Origin: Thermoplasmata archaeon
GTDB taxonomy: Archaea > Thermoplasmatota > Thermoplasmata > UBA10834
Direction: 5' to 3'
DNA length: 64,000 nucleotides
Assembly (NCBI GenBank): GCA_029864565.1
Contig: JAOTTD010000009.1
Coordinates: 1-64,000, forward strand
The notes beneath the pieces are model-generated. The model was given only the letters and a program-made list of their open reading frames with translations, had not been told where the DNA came from and did not search any database. Numbering within the stretch: the stretch's first letter is position 1; every line of letters begins with the position of its first letter. A program made the position numbers and the translations under genes. Positions 2,826-36,130 of this stretch are shown piece after piece.

Positions 2826-3946
2826 GCGACCCCAACCTCGTCAGAATCCGCGAAGGCACCACGGAACTGATGGTTCCGCAAGGCTTCTGCATGCGAGGGC
2901 CTGGAAAGTCGTCTAAGGATGTGTTTTACAACAGACAGATGGAGTTCAGCAGAGACATCTCTGTATTACTCGGAAGAATCGCCCTGGAAGAGGGCTGGCG
3001 CGCACTGGACGGACTCGCCGCAAGCGGGGCGAGGGGGTTGCGCATGGCAAACGAATGCTTTTCGAATGGGCAGTTCGTCCTTAATGACAGGAATGAACGG
3101 GCGGCGGACTTGATTCACAAGAACGCCGAGTTGAACGACCTCACGGACGTCGAAGTCTCATGCAGGGATCTAAGGGCGCTGCTGGCTGAGGAGCACTTCG
3201 ATTACATCGATGTCGATCCTTTTGGCACGCCAGTCGCATTTATCGACTCGGCGATCCAAAGTTGTCGCGACGACGGCATCGTCGCAATCACAGCGACCGA
3301 TACTGCGCCCCTCTCTGGGACATACCCCAAGACTTGCGCCCGCAGATACGGCGCGTTGTCGGCCAGGAGTCCGTTCTCTCACGAAACAGGACTACGCATC
3401 CTGATGGGATACGTGGTGCGCGAGGCGGCGAAGCACGACCGCGGGTGCGAGCCGGTGCTCTGCTTTCACGCGGACCACTACTTTAGATGCCACATGAGGC
3501 TTCGCAAGGGTGCTGGACGGGCGGACAAGTCGCTGACCGAGTTGGGCTTTGCTACCTATGACCCTAAGTCACTTCGCCGCGAAATCGCCCCGGAACGCCC
3601 CACCGGCGACACACGGGGGGTCGCTGGGCCATTGTGGTGTGGACGACTGCATTCATCACACATCCTAGACGATATCAACCTTGATAGCGCTCTGGGCACC
3701 AGCCGACGGTGCGAGAAGATGGTCGGCCTGTGGCGAGAGGAACTCTCTGCCACTCCGCTATACTATCGAGTGGATGAACTCGCACAACGCACGAAACATC
3801 ATCCGCCGAAGCTATTGCGACTCATTGAATCTCTTCGTGCAATCGGGGCCTCGGCGTCGCCCACCCACTTCGACCCGAAAGGGGTCAAAACGGACATGCC
3901 ACTTGACGAGCTTTTAGCGACATTCGAGGACATCTCGGAAAGGTAG
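2822..3946 (+). CDS. trm1: tRNA (guanine26-N2)-dimethyltransferase
   Basis: VPQGFCMRGPGKSSKDVFYNRQMEFSRDIS...DGLAASGARGLRMANE...DYIDVDPFGTP; GTG start overlapping the upstream stop. Confidence 0.92.
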   Translation: MSDPNLVRIREGTTELMVPQGFCMRGPGKSSKDVFYNRQMEFSRDISVLLGRIALEEGWRALDGLAASGARGLRMANECFSNGQFVLNDRNERAADLIHKNAELNDLTDVEVSCRDLRALLAEEHFDYIDVDPFGTPVAFIDSAIQSCRDDGIVAITATDTAPLSGTYPKTCARRYGALSARSPFSHETGLRILMGYVVREAAKHDRGCEPVLCFHADHYFRCHMRLRKGAGRADKSLTELGFATYDPKSLRREIAPERPTGDTRGVAGPLWCGRLHSSHILDDINLDSALGTSRRCEKMVGLWREELSATPLYYRVDELAQRTKHHPPKLLRLIESLRAIGASASPTHFDPKGVKTDMPLDELLATFEDISER

Positions 3947-10937: not shown

Positions 10938-11867
10938 GTGAGTTCGTGCGATAAGTGCTCCAACCCAGCGGCTATACTCGTCAGGTACAGCGGAGCTCGT
11001 CTGTGCAAGAAGCATTTGTGCGAGTTCGTCGTCAAGAGGGTGAAGCACGAATTTCGAAGGCAGGTGACCCTCGAACGTGGCGAACGGATCGCGGTCGCCG
11101 TCTCGGGTGGGAAAGACAGCACCGTGGCCGCATTTCTCCTCAAAGAGACACTGGGTGCAAGAAGAGACATAGAGTTCTGCGCAATCACTATCGACGAGGG
11201 GATCGAGGGATACAGGCCCAGCGCAATCCCCATCGTTGCGGACAACTGCCGAGCACTCGACATGGAGCATATCGTGGTGTCCTTCGAAGAGTCCTACGGG
11301 TTCACGATGGACCAAGTAGCGGAGGCAGAGCGCAACATGTCCTCCTGCACGTACTGCGGTGTCATGCGGAGAGCCGCTCTGAACCGCGCGGCGAAGGAAT
11401 GGGAGGCCTCCCGTCTTGCGACCGGCTTGAACCTCGACGACACCGCCCAGTCCATACTGATGAACTTCTCCAGGGGGGATGTGGAACGACTCGCCAGGCT
11501 CGGCCCTCATACGAGGAGTCAGCCAGGATTAGTGCCGCGAATCCAACCGCTGAGGACCATCCCCGAGAACGAGGTCGCGTTGTACGCTTTGGCGAAGGGT
11601 TTACGATACCATGACCTCGAATGCCCTTATGCATCGGAAGCTCTGAGGAATGACTATCGTGAGCTGCTGGCCAAACTCGAGGACAAGTATCCCGGGACGA
11701 GGCATTCCATACTCAAGAGCTACGAGGAGATACTCGACGCGATCGAGCGCGCACACCCACCGGCGAATCTGAGGTTATGTGAGTGCGGCGAACCGACCGC
11801 GTCGCAATCCGGAATGTGCAAGGTGTGCGATCTCGTCGCCTCGTTGAAGCGGGATCGTGTCAGCTAG
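10938..11867 (+). CDS. tRNA 2-thiolation ATPase, TtuA/NcsA (TtcA-like) family
   Basis: N-terminal CDKCSNPA zinc finger, AVSGGKDSTVAAFLL PP-loop, CTYCGVMRR, C-terminal CECGEPTASQSGMCKVCD; GTG at 10938 lies 26.5 bp from TATATA 10909-10914. Confidence 0.88.
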   Translation: MSSCDKCSNPAAILVRYSGARLCKKHLCEFVVKRVKHEFRRQVTLERGERIAVAVSGGKDSTVAAFLLKETLGARRDIEFCAITIDEGIEGYRPSAIPIVADNCRALDMEHIVVSFEESYGFTMDQVAEAERNMSSCTYCGVMRRAALNRAAKEWEASRLATGLNLDDTAQSILMNFSRGDVERLARLGPHTRSQPGLVPRIQPLRTIPENEVALYALAKGLRYHDLECPYASEALRNDYRELLAKLEDKYPGTRHSILKSYEEILDAIERAHPPANLRLCECGEPTASQSGMCKVCDLVASLKRDRVS

Positions 11868-29304: not shown

Positions 29305-30687
29305 TCACAGCTCGTCCTTGAGGTGCACGCCCAGGTTGGCCATCGACTTCTTGTACGATTTGATGACCCTCTTGTACTCCTTCGAAGGCTCTCGGTTCTC
29401 CGCATCCCAGCATTCATTGAGGTTCTTACCGAGCGGCGGGCTCGAGAGTTTCGATTCGTACTTCGACAGCAGTTTATTCGCAATCTCGTTCGCGTCCTTG
29501 AGGCTCATCCCGGCGACAGCGTGTCCAACCTCCGCTGAAATCCTTGGCTCGACAGGTGTCGTTTGGTCCTCGTATCGGTTCGAAGCCACCCCCACGGACT
29601 CAAAAGACAGTCCTGCGGTGACCGCTGCCAGCACCGACGCCGATGTCTCGAACAGGCACATCGGAGTGCAGGGCCCCGCCGATGTGTAGTTCAGGTTCAG
29701 ACTTATTATGTGGGAGTTCCTACTGATGGCCTGCCCCGTGGTGCTTATCACCCACAGTAGTTCCCTGCAGCTGCTGGAAACGTACCTGAGATGGATGGGA
29801 AACGGCAGTATCCAGCTTGACTGGTACGTCAGTATTCCCATGAGGTGATGAGCGACGTTGGACAGCGCTGTGCCCTCCGCCCCTCCGGCGTATCCGCCAA
29901 GCAGGGGGCCCTCGCACATGCCTATCGGACCTCCAAGCGAAAGGGCAGTCGTGACCTTGTTGAGCCTCGCGAAATCCACCTTCATTGGGTCCATGCAGCA
30001 AATCATGTACGCATCGGACCGACGCATCCCGAATTTGGGATGAAGCGCCGCGGCGAAGGCTATGTCGGATTCCGCCGTAGACAGGGAGTTCATTATCGGT
30101 ATGCCCTCACGACCGACCCGGTTGCACGCTTCCCTCGCGAGAACGGCGTTCCTCATGGCCCCCAGTATCTCCAATGGCGAAGCGGGTCGGATCCTCATGC
30201 CGCCGACGCGCGTGATGGCAGGCGTGGTTATCCCATTTGTCTCGGGAATCTCCGCGTATCCCTCAACGAGAGTGAGGAACGATTTGTCGCTGGAGCATGC
30301 ACCTCCACCGGCACCAAGTAGGCACCAAGGAGGCGTCCTATCGCCGACCTTTCTGCCCCTCAGCTTTTTGCGGTCACGGCCCTCACCCAGCTCGATCTCC
30401 TCGGGCGCCTCGGCAATCGCCTGCCTTATCTCCTTCTCTGAATACGATATTATCCTCGCAGTGCTGGTGCAGTAAGCACCGACTTCAGCGACGAGATCTA
30501 CAGCAGCCTCGAACATGTCGTCGGCAAGCGAACCGTCGTTCGGAATCGGGTTCTTGGGGTCGTACTTGATCTTGTACTCCTTTACCTTCTCCTGCACCTT
30601 CGGAGCGAACCGTCGTAGCTGATAGTCCGACTCGCTCATCGGTGTTCCTTCGAGCGCCTTGTCCATGACATCGAGGATCTGCACCAA
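29305..30687 (-). CDS. MtmB-family (monomethylamine-type) corrinoid methyltransferase lacking an in-frame amber codon
   Basis: YCTSTARIISYSEKEIRQAI...PLLGGYAGGAEGTALSNVAHHLMGILTYQSSW...SAGPCTPMCLFETSA...GKNLNECWDAENREPSKEY: same order and motifs as remembered MtmB; continuous 460-aa ORF. Confidence 0.8.
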   Translation of the reverse strand: MVQILDVMDKALEGTPMSESDYQLRRFAPKVQEKVKEYKIKYDPKNPIPNDGSLADDMFEAAVDLVAEVGAYCTSTARIISYSEKEIRQAIAEAPEEIELGEGRDRKKLRGRKVGDRTPPWCLLGAGGGACSSDKSFLTLVEGYAEIPETNGITTPAITRVGGMRIRPASPLEILGAMRNAVLAREACNRVGREGIPIMNSLSTAESDIAFAAALHPKFGMRRSDAYMICCMDPMKVDFARLNKVTTALSLGGPIGMCEGPLLGGYAGGAEGTALSNVAHHLMGILTYQSSWILPFPIHLRYVSSSCRELLWVISTTGQAISRNSHIISLNLNYTSAGPCTPMCLFETSASVLAAVTAGLSFESVGVASNRYEDQTTPVEPRISAEVGHAVAGMSLKDANEIANKLLSKYESKLSSPPLGKNLNECWDAENREPSKEYKRVIKSYKKSMANLGVHLKDEL

Positions 30688-30691
30688 CCTC

Positions 30692-31342
30692 TCACTTCCC
30701 TTTGGCCAGCTTGTTCGCCAGTCTGACCGTGGTCGCCGCGTCCTCGCCCCATCCGTCGGCGCCTATCTCCTTGGCCCACTCGCCTGTGGTCGGGCCGCCG
30801 CCTACCATGAACGCGTGATTCTTCCTGATCTTCATCGAGCCCAGATAGTCCACTATGTCCTTCTGAGAACCGATAGTGCTCGACATCAACGCCGAGGCAC
30901 CGATGATATCCGCCTTGGACTTCTGCGCCTCGTCGACGAAAGTAGCCGTCTTGACGTCCACGCCCAGGTCAACCACATTGAACCCGTTCGCCATCAGCAT
31001 GTTTGACACGATGTTCTTGCCTATCTCGTGTATGTCACCCTGAACTGTGCCAATCACGACCGTCCCTTTGGACACGGATTTGCCCTTCGGTATCAGCGGG
31101 AGTAGCAGCGACATGGCAGCCCTCATCGCATCTGCCGCGAGCATCAGTTCGGGCAGGTAGACTTCCATCTTTTCGAACTTTTCGCCAACTGACTCAATGG
31201 CGGGAGAGAGCCCCTTCTCGATTGCCTTCAGCGGGTCCATGCCCAACCTGATAGCTTCCTTTGCAGCCTTCTCGGCAGCGCCGGAGTCGTAGGACAATAT
31301 GGCATTCGATAGAGCCTTCTGCACCTTCTTCTCATCCATCAA
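30692..31342 (-). CDS. methyltransferase corrinoid protein (MttC/MtmC-like)
   Basis: GTVVIGTVQGDIHEIGKNIVSNMLMANGFNVVDLGVDV: DxHxxG B12-binding motif. Confidence 0.92.
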   Translation of the reverse strand: MMDEKKVQKALSNAILSYDSGAAEKAAKEAIRLGMDPLKAIEKGLSPAIESVGEKFEKMEVYLPELMLAADAMRAAMSLLLPLIPKGKSVSKGTVVIGTVQGDIHEIGKNIVSNMLMANGFNVVDLGVDVKTATFVDEAQKSKADIIGASALMSSTIGSQKDIVDYLGSMKIRKNHAFMVGGGPTTGEWAKEIGADGWGEDAATTVRLANKLAKGK

Positions 31343-31513
31343 CTAACCCCCTAAAGCAGAGAACCGCATGGGCGGTCCGTCCAGCGGGTGGATATTCATC
31401 CTGCCATAAAAAGGATTCCAGCGACGACGCCTGGACGACGCTGGAAGGCTCTCCCGCTGCCTCCTGGCTCCATCGTAATGCCTTTGGAGCGATGGGCGAG
31501 CGCAAGTGTCAAG

Positions 31514-32956
31514 TCAGAAGCCGTCCACTATCATATTCAGACGCTTCGAGACATCTCCATCGAGCTTCTCCGGCTTGTGCTCAGCAATGATCTTATGCGC
31601 CTTCTCGCCCGCGACGTCCATCAGGTCCTTCTTGCCGCCCTCGACCCATGACTCGAAAGTTGACATATCCCACAGTGTCGGCAGGTAGAAATCACGAACC
31701 CTCTTGAGCGTGTGCATCTCGCTGAGGTAGTTTCTCCCGATTCCGACCTTCTTGATGACATCAAGGGCGATCGTCTCATCACTGACCTCGATCTCCTTGT
31801 GCGCGTTTATCACCAGGCCAACAATCTCATGGTCGAGCATCAGCTGCTCGTACGACAGAAGCGTAGAGCCATCGGCCAAACCGATTCCATTCATGACTTC
31901 GCTACCAGCGGTGGTTAGAGGTGGACACAGTATTGAGTTCTCAATCGACACACGAATCCCTGGTACCCTCGAGCTGCCACCGATGCCGCCTGCAGAGCAT
32001 GGGATATTGAGAAACTTTGCCATCTCAGCATCGCCTATGCTTATCAGAATCGTCTCCGGAGCCCCCGAGTTATACGCGCCTGTCCTGGGGTCCATGCTCG
32101 ACTGAACAGAACCATAGAGCAGCGGCGCTCCGGGCTCATGTGCCTGCATCGCGCATGCCAAGGCCACTGTTTCAGCATGGTTCACAACAAGGCTTCCAGC
32201 AACGGTCGCGGGCCCGGTCAGCCCCATGCTCGCCATGCCGGTGATGTGCACCGGCACATGGTTCTCCGCCCAGACCATCGCCGCGTCGGTCGCACCGCCA
32301 TCGAGTATCAATGGCGAAACAGTGCAGACCATCGCGGAGAGATAGTGCCTCTCCCTCAGCTCCTCCTTCGAGCCCACGACGGCAGCGGCCATCTCGACCT
32401 GAGCACGAGCTTCCTCGGGGGTGGTCGTCGACTCGGTCTCAATGTGTTTCGTCGTGTTCTCCATGGCGGTCTTGAGTCCCATGAGCACGTGTGTCTTCGA
32501 CGGCATGTCGTTTGCGACCACCATGGGCTCATAGATGCTCAGGTAAGGCAAGTAATCGCCGAGGACCGCGGTCTTTCTTATGTCTTCGAGGGTCGACTCG
32601 TGCCGCGTTTGGGTCTTGTTGTTCCACACGGATATGCCGCAACCGTCCGTTGTGTGGTACTGGTGCCTACGGTCGAGTGGAAGGTCGTGCTCCTTGGTTC
32701 TCCCAGCCAAAACAATATTCGACGGTATCTTCTTGAGCAATGATTCAACGAGATCCGCTGGATACTTCACGATGCTCGTCTTATCGTCGACGGTGGCCCC
32801 GGCTCGCTTCAGCGACTCCCTGGCGACGCTACTGTGAACCCGGATGCCTGTGGTCTCGAGCACGTCCAGCGCTGCATCGTGTATCTTCTTCCTGTCCGAT
32901 TCCTTGATGAAGTTCTTTGGCTCCCTCACTCTAAATCTATCTGCAAATGATGACAT
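31514..32956 (-). CDS. non-Pyl MttB-family methyltransferase A
   Basis: 480-aa uninterrupted ORF; DALDVLETTGIRVHS...GMASMGLTGPATVAGSLVVNHAETVA, MttB superfamily. Confidence 0.85.
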   Translation of the reverse strand: MSSFADRFRVREPKNFIKESDRKKIHDAALDVLETTGIRVHSSVARESLKRAGATVDDKTSIVKYPADLVESLLKKIPSNIVLAGRTKEHDLPLDRRHQYHTTDGCGISVWNNKTQTRHESTLEDIRKTAVLGDYLPYLSIYEPMVVANDMPSKTHVLMGLKTAMENTTKHIETESTTTPEEARAQVEMAAAVVGSKEELRERHYLSAMVCTVSPLILDGGATDAAMVWAENHVPVHITGMASMGLTGPATVAGSLVVNHAETVALACAMQAHEPGAPLLYGSVQSSMDPRTGAYNSGAPETILISIGDAEMAKFLNIPCSAGGIGGSSRVPGIRVSIENSILCPPLTTAGSEVMNGIGLADGSTLLSYEQLMLDHEIVGLVINAHKEIEVSDETIALDVIKKVGIGRNYLSEMHTLKRVRDFYLPTLWDMSTFESWVEGGKKDLMDVAGEKAHKIIAEHKPEKLDGDVSKRLNMIVDGF

Positions 32957-33112
32957 TCCACCACTCCCTGTAGCAGGAGGCTTACGCCTCCGAAGCCCGC
33001 ATCAATAGAAAAGGTTTTTGACCAACCTTCATGAGACCGGCATCTCCGAAAGCGAAGGGTTCAAGAACCTTTCCAGTGGCCATCACCGCTTCCCTTTTGA
33101 GAGCGCGGTTCC

Positions 33113-34546
33113 TCAGACCTTGGCGTCCTTCACGTACTGCTTGATTAGCTCGTCTCCGGAGCGAACGATTGCCTTATCGATTGCTGGCACTGAGTGGTCT
33201 CTGAGAATGCTCCTCGCAATCTCCTTCGCCTCGGGCACCATCTTGTCGGAGAGGGTCGCCTCCCATTCGAGGGTCTTCTCGTCGAAGAAATGCAGCTCCT
33301 TCTTGAAGTTCCTCGCCGTGTGTGGATGAGTGAGGAAGGTGTTGCCGTGCCCAACCTGCTTCACGACATCCAGCGCTATCGTCTCCTCAGATATCGTTAC
33401 ATTCCTCATGTAGGCGCGGACGTTCTCCCATATTTTGGCCTCGATTACCGCCTGGTCGAACGCCACACCCTTGACTGCATCGATACCGCCTATACCGGAT
33501 ATGAGATCAGTGTTCGTCATTGTGCTGAGCGTTATGCCCAATATCGTTGTGAACGGATGCGGTATCCCTGGCGATTCCGTATCGTTTATTCCCCAGTCGC
33601 CGACCATAGATGGTAAACCGTACCTGCGCGCCATCTGCCCAAGGCCAGCGGCTATCAACGGCTGCTCGCTGGTCATGTAGTTGATCATCCCCGTTTTCAT
33701 GCTGATGGGAGCGGAGGATGAGCAGTAAATGTGGGGCGAGCCCGGGGCCGCGGACTGCGTGATCACAAGGCTCGCGAGGTTCTCGGCGTTTGCGTTCGTG
33801 ATGGTTCCCGCAAGTGTCACAGGGCTCGAACCACCGGAGAGCGACATCGACATCGACATGATGGGTATGCCCGCCTTGGCGAGTTCGACCATGCCCTCGA
33901 CCGCGCCCCCTTCGTATGACAACGGCGCGATTGAGCAGCAGATGACCGAGAATAGCGGCCTCTTCCTCAACTCGTCCTCGCCGCCTGCAACGAGTGCTCC
34001 AAGTTCCACCTGTTTCCTCGAATCCGCAGCGCTCATGACCGAGACGCCGTTAACGTGTTTGGTCGTGTTCTGCATGGCGGTCCAAAGCTCATACAGACCG
34101 TGCGATATCTGCGGAACGTCATTGGCTGTGATAGAGGTCCAAAGGAAGTCGACGCCGTTCAAGCCATCTCCCAGCCTGATGAAGTCAGCGATGTCCTTCC
34201 TTGTGGACGGCCTTTTCTCACCAGTGTCCATGTCACGTATGTAAACGCCAAGACCGGTCGTCGCGGCGAATGGAGGACCCGCGACCGGTATCTCCATGTC
34301 GTTCTTGTTGTCCCTCGCGCACAAGCGTGTCTTCTTGGGAGCCTTCTTGAGCGCTTCGCGAACCATATTCTCTGGTATCTTCGCAATCTGCTTGGAGAAA
34401 TCCACGTCGGCGCCTGCTTCACTAAGCGTCTTGAGCGTCGAGTCGCTCCGGATCATAACCCCAATCTCGTTCAGGCTCTTGAGGCTCGACTCGTGTATCA
34501 TATCCTGCTCTTCCTTCGAGAGGAAGACAAATCTAGCGTGTGCCAT
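33113..34546 (-). CDS. non-Pyl MttB-family methyltransferase B
   Basis: MAHARFVFLSKEEQDMIHESSLKSLNEIGVMIRS...SLSGGSSPVTLAGTITNANAENLASLVITQ; no internal stop; start at ATG 34546. Confidence 0.85.
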   Translation of the reverse strand: MAHARFVFLSKEEQDMIHESSLKSLNEIGVMIRSDSTLKTLSEAGADVDFSKQIAKIPENMVREALKKAPKKTRLCARDNKNDMEIPVAGPPFAATTGLGVYIRDMDTGEKRPSTRKDIADFIRLGDGLNGVDFLWTSITANDVPQISHGLYELWTAMQNTTKHVNGVSVMSAADSRKQVELGALVAGGEDELRKRPLFSVICCSIAPLSYEGGAVEGMVELAKAGIPIMSMSMSLSGGSSPVTLAGTITNANAENLASLVITQSAAPGSPHIYCSSSAPISMKTGMINYMTSEQPLIAAGLGQMARRYGLPSMVGDWGINDTESPGIPHPFTTILGITLSTMTNTDLISGIGGIDAVKGVAFDQAVIEAKIWENVRAYMRNVTISEETIALDVVKQVGHGNTFLTHPHTARNFKKELHFFDEKTLEWEATLSDKMVPEAKEIARSILRDHSVPAIDKAIVRSGDELIKQYVKDAKV

Positions 34547-34681
34547 GATGCAACTCCCCCACCGTTCACTCCTTTCTGAACGGGACGGCAATCCCGCATC
34601 CATGTAATATTCGTTTCGACGCTCTGCGATGTCACGTTTAAGACCTTTCGCTTTCCGTCGAAAGAGGCCATTCGGGAGCGA

Positions 34682-35578
34682 TTACGCGGTTTGAACCCTT
34701 CCGCGCGTGAGCACGATATACAGCCCACCGATGACCAATGCTCCTCCCAGGATTATCCACAGGCCGGGGGTTTCGTCCGGCAAAAGCAAGAAAGCCAGGA
34801 TGGAGGCTCCAACAGGCTCGCCGAGAACGCTTGTGGACACTATGTGGGCTGGCACCTTCTTCAGAGCGTAGTTGAACATGGTGTGTCCAAGGATCGTAGG
34901 GACAATCGCTAACAGAAGGAACAGGGACAGCTCGCGCCCGTCCAGCACCAGGAGCTCATCCCCCGCAACCATAGCCGCGGCTAGCATTATGACAGCCGAT
35001 AGCGAATAGACGGACAACACGTACGGGCCGAGCGACACCCTCTGGCGCGCGAGCCTCCCAGATAGGAAGTATATTCCAGCGCAGAGTCCGCCGAGGAAAG
35101 CCAGCAAGTCTCCAAGGAAAGTGTCGCTACCCTCACCGTAATCCGCAACCGATATGACGCAAACGCCGGAGAAGGCGACGACTATGCCAATCGCGGCAAT
35201 CCTCTTCACCCTCTCCCCAAGCACAAAATGAGACACCCCTGCGACGAACATCGGATGAGCGGTGACGAGTATAACCGATGTCGATACGAGAGTCAATGTA
35301 AGGGACACTATCCAGAGTCCGAAATGGAACGACAGCGCGACGGCGCTTATGACAATTAACATGAGGTCCGTCTTGCCCAGCCGCCTCAGTTCCGAGAATC
35401 CTCTCGACCACGCTATGAACGGCAGAAGCAGGGCGCACGTGAAGACGAGGCGATAGAATGCGATGACGAACGGGCTTGAGCCGCTCCACTTGATGAATAC
35501 GGAGGCGAAAGATATAGAAACCATCGCGACGAGGATTGCCGAGTAGGCTCTCGATGTTTCCTCGCTCTCGATGGACAA
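34682..35578 (-). CDS. EamA/DMT-family transporter
   Basis: About 10 TM segments; SFASVFIKWSGSSPFVIAFYRLVFTCALLLPF; C-terminal EPVGASILAFLLLPDETPGLWIILGGALVIGGLYIVL. Confidence 0.88.
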   Translation of the reverse strand: MSIESEETSRAYSAILVAMVSISFASVFIKWSGSSPFVIAFYRLVFTCALLLPFIAWSRGFSELRRLGKTDLMLIVISAVALSFHFGLWIVSLTLTLVSTSVILVTAHPMFVAGVSHFVLGERVKRIAAIGIVVAFSGVCVISVADYGEGSDTFLGDLLAFLGGLCAGIYFLSGRLARQRVSLGPYVLSVYSLSAVIMLAAAMVAGDELLVLDGRELSLFLLLAIVPTILGHTMFNYALKKVPAHIVSTSVLGEPVGASILAFLLLPDETPGLWIILGGALVIGGLYIVLTRGRVQTA

Positions 35579-35629: not shown

Positions 35630-36130
35630 CTAGTATATTGTGACCCCTTTGACGCCTTTGGCCTGACGTATCAGGGGAATCACTTCAGGTGGGACCGTGC
35701 TCTCAGTCACGATGAAGAGCCTTGGCTCCTCGGAGGTCATGGGATCGTCCACGATCGCCTGGCGAATGCTGATTCCCGACCGGGACAGTATCTCAGCGAC
35801 TCCCGACAGGCAGCCGGGTTCGTGGGCGTTGACGGGCACGATCTCTATCGCGCTCCAACCCATCGCGGAGGCGGCGTTCTTGAGGTGGTTGGTCGGCAGA
35901 AGTTGAGAGAAGAACTTCTGAAGCGTCGGGTCGCCCTTGATAGTGTCTATGGTGGATTTCACGACTCTCCTGTCGACCCCCGCGGCTCTAGCAAGTGCGG
36001 AATCCGCAATCTGCACATCGCCACAATAGATATGGTCCCTGTCAATGCGGAGTCCGTATCTCAGGAGGTACCTCGCGACCTTGGCCTGAGATGGATATTT
36101 CTCGAAGTAATTCGCAATCTTGTCCCACAT
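35630..36130 (-). CDS. HTH/ACT-domain regulator of amino-acid metabolism (COG2150-like)
   Basis: VARYLLRYGLRIDRDHIYCGDVQIADSALARAAGVDRRVVKSTI then ACT IEIVPVNAHEPGCLSGVAEILSRSGISIRQAIVDDP. Confidence 0.8.
   Translation of the reverse strand: MWDKIANYFEKYPSQAKVARYLLRYGLRIDRDHIYCGDVQIADSALARAAGVDRRVVKSTIDTIKGDPTLQKFFSQLLPTNHLKNAASAMGWSAIEIVPVNAHEPGCLSGVAEILSRSGISIRQAIVDDPMTSEEPRLFIVTESTVPPEVIPLIRQAKGVKGVTIY

Follow-up and report, generated by a model that had tools for sequence, protein, structure and literature searches.

A pyrrolysine-free MtmB/MttB methyltransferase locus in a Thermoplasmata archaeon and its probable connection to tetrahydrofolate-dependent acetogenesis

MtmB1 of Methanosarcina barkeri (PDB 1l2q/1nth) carries pyrrolysine (Pyl) at position 202 in polar surroundings. 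MtqB of Methanococcoides methylutens Q3c is the only non-Pyl MtmB-family enzyme of known function and demethylates tetramethylammonium and choline (PMC13044021); like the enzyme described here it adjoins its own corrinoid protein, MtqC, and its pocket, in which a Met and a Cys are conserved, has many aromatic and sulfur-containing residues. In its host, a Pyl-using methanogen, the methyl groups that MtqB releases pass by way of MtbA to CoM and methane (PMC13044021). The non-Pyl methyltransferases MtpB, MtcB and MtyB of Eubacterium limosum share few corrinoid carriers in the MtpB/MtcB/MtyB-MtqC-MtqA-RamQ system, where the Wood-Ljungdahl pathway is supplied by a corrinoid:THF methyltransferase working with a reductive activase (PMC8604678), much as we propose below. 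For the archaeal lineage COMBO-56-21 (Ca. Gimiplasmatales), PMC11264602 proposes methylotrophic acetogenesis with mttB, mttC, mtmB, mtgB, acsA-E and the H4F branch, and states that a second methyltransferase is lacking from the model.

We compared a locus from a Thermoplasmata archaeon with these systems. Our best reading, by analogy, is that it would work like the MtxB-MtqC-MtqA-RamQ system of E. limosum: with a probability of about 0.72, it is a quaternary-amine-type demethylase set that delivers methyl groups to tetrahydrofolate and CODH/ACS and includes an MtqB-like MtmB. The E. limosum system is bacterial and of MttB type, whereas the archaeal one also has enzymes of MtmB type and a fused CODH/ACS; unlike the setting of MtqB, it has MttB genes alongside and no URO-D protein, Mcr or PylS. 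The component protein kinds are already known, and the new detail lies in how the active site has been remodelled, in likely candidates for the missing partner enzymes and in the pattern across the order. As far as the accessible literature shows, the new elements are the order-wide replacement of the Pyl site and a dimethylargininase link, both additions to the COMBO-56-21 proposal as available in PMC11264602, together with a candidate second methyltransferase and the relation of the two MttB-type proteins to MtmB loci. The initial annotation had suggested an uncharacterised methylated-amine demethylation system, a description which needs correcting, as MtqB has a known function (PMC13044021) and methylotrophy had already been put forward for the lineage (PMC11264602).

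Gene content and conservation of the locus

The window, that is the whole stretch of 64,000 nucleotides analysed, corresponds to contig C30 of a 1.93-Mb metagenome-assembled genome of 86% completeness, probably of the lineage Ca. Gimiplasmatales/COMBO-56-21 within the Thermoplasmata. Read along the minus strand in the direction of transcription, the genes encode a TrpY-family regulator (35630..36130; NF053754, 185 bits), an EamA/DMT transporter (34682..35578; PF00892, 114 bits), two non-Pyl MttB-superfamily proteins, P4 (33113..34546; PF06253, 235 bits) and P3 (31514..32956; PF06253, 288 bits; PDB 7xcl, 8e-60), a corrinoid protein of MtxC type (30692..31342; TIGR02370, 208 bits) and an MtmB-family methyltransferase (29305..30687). 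The five minus-strand ORFs from EamA to MtmB are uninterrupted and match the families that the initial annotation had named. Profile searches recovered PF02607 and PF02310 in the corrinoid protein, with the DIHEIG axial His motif within GDIHEIGKN, and scores of 205 and 186 bits against the MtgC and MtbC models. The MtmB matches PF05369 over 449 of 450 positions (323 bits). Its TTG start is kept in five genomes; the corrinoid gene has an alternative start at ATG 31339, and P4 most likely begins at ATG 34546, which gives 477 aa and equal length in five genomes, rather than at 34603.

Only 4 nt separate the corrinoid gene from mtmB, and tight coupling is limited to this pair. The gaps before P4, P3 and the corrinoid gene span about 130-170 nt, and each holds a minus-strand TATA-like stretch recognised by consensus: GGTCTTAAACGTGAC at 34631..34645 before P4 (core in 4/5 genomes), ACCTTTTCTATTGATG at 33000..33015 before P3 and CCTTTTTATGGCAGG at 31400..31414 before the corrinoid gene, its core kept in relatives. 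The MttB genes appear to be transcribed separately. The TrpY-family gene, which serves here as context outside the system, lies upstream of EamA and is divergent from aromatic biosynthesis genes; the transporter, counted in the cluster by the initial annotation, is present and syntenic in four relatives but may not belong to the system. No RNA regulatory element was found near the cluster with Rfam, and the window holds no tRNA genes.

The gene order is shared with four congeneric relatives (L039, L040, L041 and L044), and the arrangement MttB-MttB-corrinoid-MtmB is intact in all five genomes of the genus with sufficient contig. Against the four relatives, pN/pS was 0.10-0.30 for all five genes and 0.10-0.18 for MtmB; these are rough values with synonymous sites near saturation, in which purifying selection is still clear. 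The five genes are real and under purifying selection. The corrinoid-MtmB pairing also recurs across the order and in Bathyarchaeota loci.

Replacement of the pyrrolysine site

An AF2 model of the window MtmB (pLDDT 85) matches 1nth/1tv2 with a TM score of 0.93, and its identity to M. barkeri MtmB1 is 33% over the structural alignment. Full-length profile match and TIM-barrel fold place it in the MtmB family, but the in-frame amber codon, or Pyl202, and the anionic cleft of canonical MtmB are lacking. In an alignment of 32 MtmB sequences from the order, the Pyl202 column is Met in every one, E205 is replaced by Leu, H228 by Tyr or Phe, E229 by Met or Leu, E259 by Cys or Asp and Q333 by Leu or Ile. 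The same cleft positions are invariant in 30 Pyl sequences, except for E205 (28/30); E229, E259 and Q333 are residues which we take to line the Pyl pocket of the MtmB structure. As Met at the Pyl column and the replaced polar residues occur in every aligned MtmB of the order, the pattern is not an artefact of recoding. A Pyl-free MtmB with a consistently replaced pocket is nearly universal in this archaeal order. The pocket of clade A, to which the window copy belongs (Met202, Tyr228, Met229, Cys259), resembles that of MtqB when compared by the description in PMC13044021, with position numbers unmatched.

The codon usage and the genome content agree with this. Of 264 predicted genes in stretches of the own genome around methyltransferases and partner genes, 58 (22%) end in TAG, and the ordinary TAG stops that had been pointed out at 3944-3946 and 11865-11867 were confirmed. 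All 22 PF06253 matches (two partial) and both PF05369 matches of the own genome are without in-frame TAG, as are the MtmB matches found in 20 of the 21 genomes of the order; the sole genome without a match is 55% complete. In Methanomassiliicoccales-like genomes of the same class, used as control, each full MtmB contains a single TAG, which shows that such codons are within reach of the search. No PylS scored over the cutoff in profile searches of the 21 genomes, and the weak matches scored in the range reached by other class II synthetases in the control genomes. The claim that the locus is pyrrolysine-free and corrinoid-dependent is supported.

The MttB-type proteins give the same picture. 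P3 has Gly in the Pyl334 column and no Tyr364, a residue fully conserved in Pyl-MttB (PMC9842639), and a column check found both Pyl334 and Tyr364 absent in 20 MttB-type copies of the own genome. These copies lie outside the Pyl-MttB clade in the tree. P3 and P4 are non-Pyl MttB-superfamily proteins (PF06253, without Pyl334 and Tyr364) and fall elsewhere than MtgB; two other copies on contig C24 group with MtgB (2qne) at a support of 0.94.

Partner enzymes across the order

We surveyed 21 genomes of the order by profile searches with cutoffs. McrA and MtrH were found in 0/21 genomes and URO-D (MtaA/MtbA-type) proteins likewise in 0/21; with both Mcr and the CoM methylase absent, the order is not methanogenic. 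MtrH- and URO-D-type proteins were also considered as second methyltransferase and rejected on these counts. RamA/AcsV-type (RACo/RamA) activators were over the PF14574 cutoff in all 21 genomes; both activator types match the NCBIfam AcsV and RamA models below the cutoffs of those models. Fhs was present in 20/21. The initial annotation had seen no MtaA/MtbA, RamA or pyl genes in the window. Nothing seen in the window contradicts this, and genome-wide searches placed none of these families on its contig, but it is misleading for the genome, as RamA/AcsV-type activators and an AcsE-like methyltransferase are encoded on other contigs.

The PF00809 proteins are of three sorts: DHPS, AcsE and a second, AcsE-like protein. 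AcsE clusters with DUF3786, an AcsV-like activator, a CODH-ACS fusion, AcsD and AcsC. The fusion joins the CODH catalytic subunit and ACS alpha/beta in about 1380 aa beside AcsC and AcsD (L119:258-4397, L110:2459-6625). In four main-family genomes (G000, G002, G006, G007) the AcsE-like gene neighbours a corrinoid gene and a pair of MttB genes, and CorA, if present, also adjoins it; in the second family it lies beside RamA (G019, G020), in one case with a corrinoid gene. The AcsE-like protein keeps the pterin-site residues D75, N96, D160 and N199. It is about equally similar to AcsE, MetH and PDB 4o0q, another methyltransferase of the same fold; these scores are compatible with more than one partner and direction. 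It is a candidate, from its sequence and its gene neighbourhood, for the second methyltransferase (MtxA) and would fill the step missing from the methylotrophic-acetogenesis model of PMC11264602.

In the mechanism that we propose, one MtmB-type and two MttB-type enzymes, Pyl-independent and each specific for its substrate, would pass methyl groups to the Co(I) of the corrinoid protein. The substrate would be an N-methyl compound that is cationic, with a quaternary amine as the likeliest case, held above the corrinoid so that Co(I) attacks its methyl group. The positive charge already present on the leaving nitrogen would make Pyl dispensable, a mechanism drawn from work on MtgB, MtpB, MtcB, MtyB and MtqB. 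The AcsE-like pterin-binding methyltransferase, in the MtxA role, would then move the methyl group towards tetrahydrofolate, and a RamA/AcsV-type activase would re-reduce Co(II). The resulting CH3-H4F may yield reductant by oxidation, be built into acetyl-CoA by AcsE, AcsC/D and the fused CODH/ACS, or do both. With four small corrinoid proteins for about 22 methyltransferases, the own genome agrees with carrier sharing of the E. limosum kind; the pairing of each of the three methyltransferases with this carrier would follow the same scheme.

Paralogues, neighbours and competing readings

The own genome encodes two MtmBs. Clade A, which includes the window copy, has Cys259 and Asn332 and usually lies behind a corrinoid gene, and clade B has Asp259 and mostly Ser332 and is usually without one. 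As the split is moderately supported in the tree (0.43 and 0.66), the clades are separated by pocket positions rather than by the tree. With its consistent pocket replacement and a pair of paralogues distinguished by Cys or Asp at a single pocket position, the order offers a clean test of function and of Pyl loss or gain. In each of the seven genus g1 genomes the clade B gene immediately follows a dimethylargininase gene, as at L085:13772-16006 (G000:C58); the dimethylargininase matches PDB 3rhy (E 5e-44) and keeps the catalytic Glu/His/Cys. This neighbourhood also holds, at L085:16035-18790, a saccharopine dehydrogenase-like/carboxynorspermidine synthase-like gene and a conserved protein of 140 aa.

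The dimethylargininase bears on a different reading of the substrates, in which the MtmB-type enzymes, at least those of clade B and possibly clade A, would need no Pyl to remove methyl groups from simple methylamines or methylguanidino compounds, for example methylamines freed from methylated arginines by the neighbouring enzyme. The constant linkage in genus g1 speaks for it, as does the weak activity of MtqB on monomethylamine (PMC13044021). Nevertheless, Pyl is thought necessary for efficient methylamine activation, the linkage may mean nitrogen scavenging only, and the window copy has Cys259 in place of Asp259 and no dimethylargininase beside it, so we consider this reading unlikely. It is somewhat more speculative that the Pyl-free MtmBs, the dimethylargininase-linked ones first and possibly the window copy, feed acetogenesis with methyl groups from methylamines or methylarginines. 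If true, this would break the rule that methylamine use by the MtmB family requires pyrrolysine, and would couple the turnover of methylated proteins to acetogenesis.

Three methyltransferases around one carrier had been noted at the outset, and the genes are indeed present, but this is one of several loci in the genome and its only tight unit is the corrinoid-MtmB pair. The genes might therefore be loose neighbours, with that pair as one unit, the two MttBs acting on other carriers and EamA in a TrpY/aromatic regulon. The long gaps with TATA-like stretches would fit, and in genus g3 the corrinoid-MtmB pair has no MttB pair directly upstream; yet the relatives of P3 lie near MtmB in g3 too, and the four-gene order is unbroken in the five genomes of the window's genus with enough contig, which makes this arrangement improbable. 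That the genes encode amber-recoded Pyl enzymes and have lost their TAG through misassembled or misread sequence has a negligible chance: their families have Pyl-bearing founders, but TAG is a normal stop here, PylS is absent over cutoff in the 21 genomes, Met is fixed, the cleft residues are replaced in concert and independent assemblies agree. The Met fixed in independent genomes, three single-contig assemblies included, rules the artefact out.

Besides the P3 relatives in g3, the closest relatives of P4 adjoin the clade B MtmB. No plasmid-borne relatives of the window MtmB were found. Three Bathyarchaeota loci (L067, L068, L071) carry corrinoid-MtmB pairs whose MtmB is about 52-53% identical to the window copy, and the two of these that were aligned, from L067 and L068, carry Met at the Pyl position. 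On C24, C26, C3, C53, C27, C4 and others (L075-L087) the own genome holds about 20 MttB-family genes of nearly full length; many are at only 25-36% identity, and several lie beside oligopeptide-type ABC transporters.
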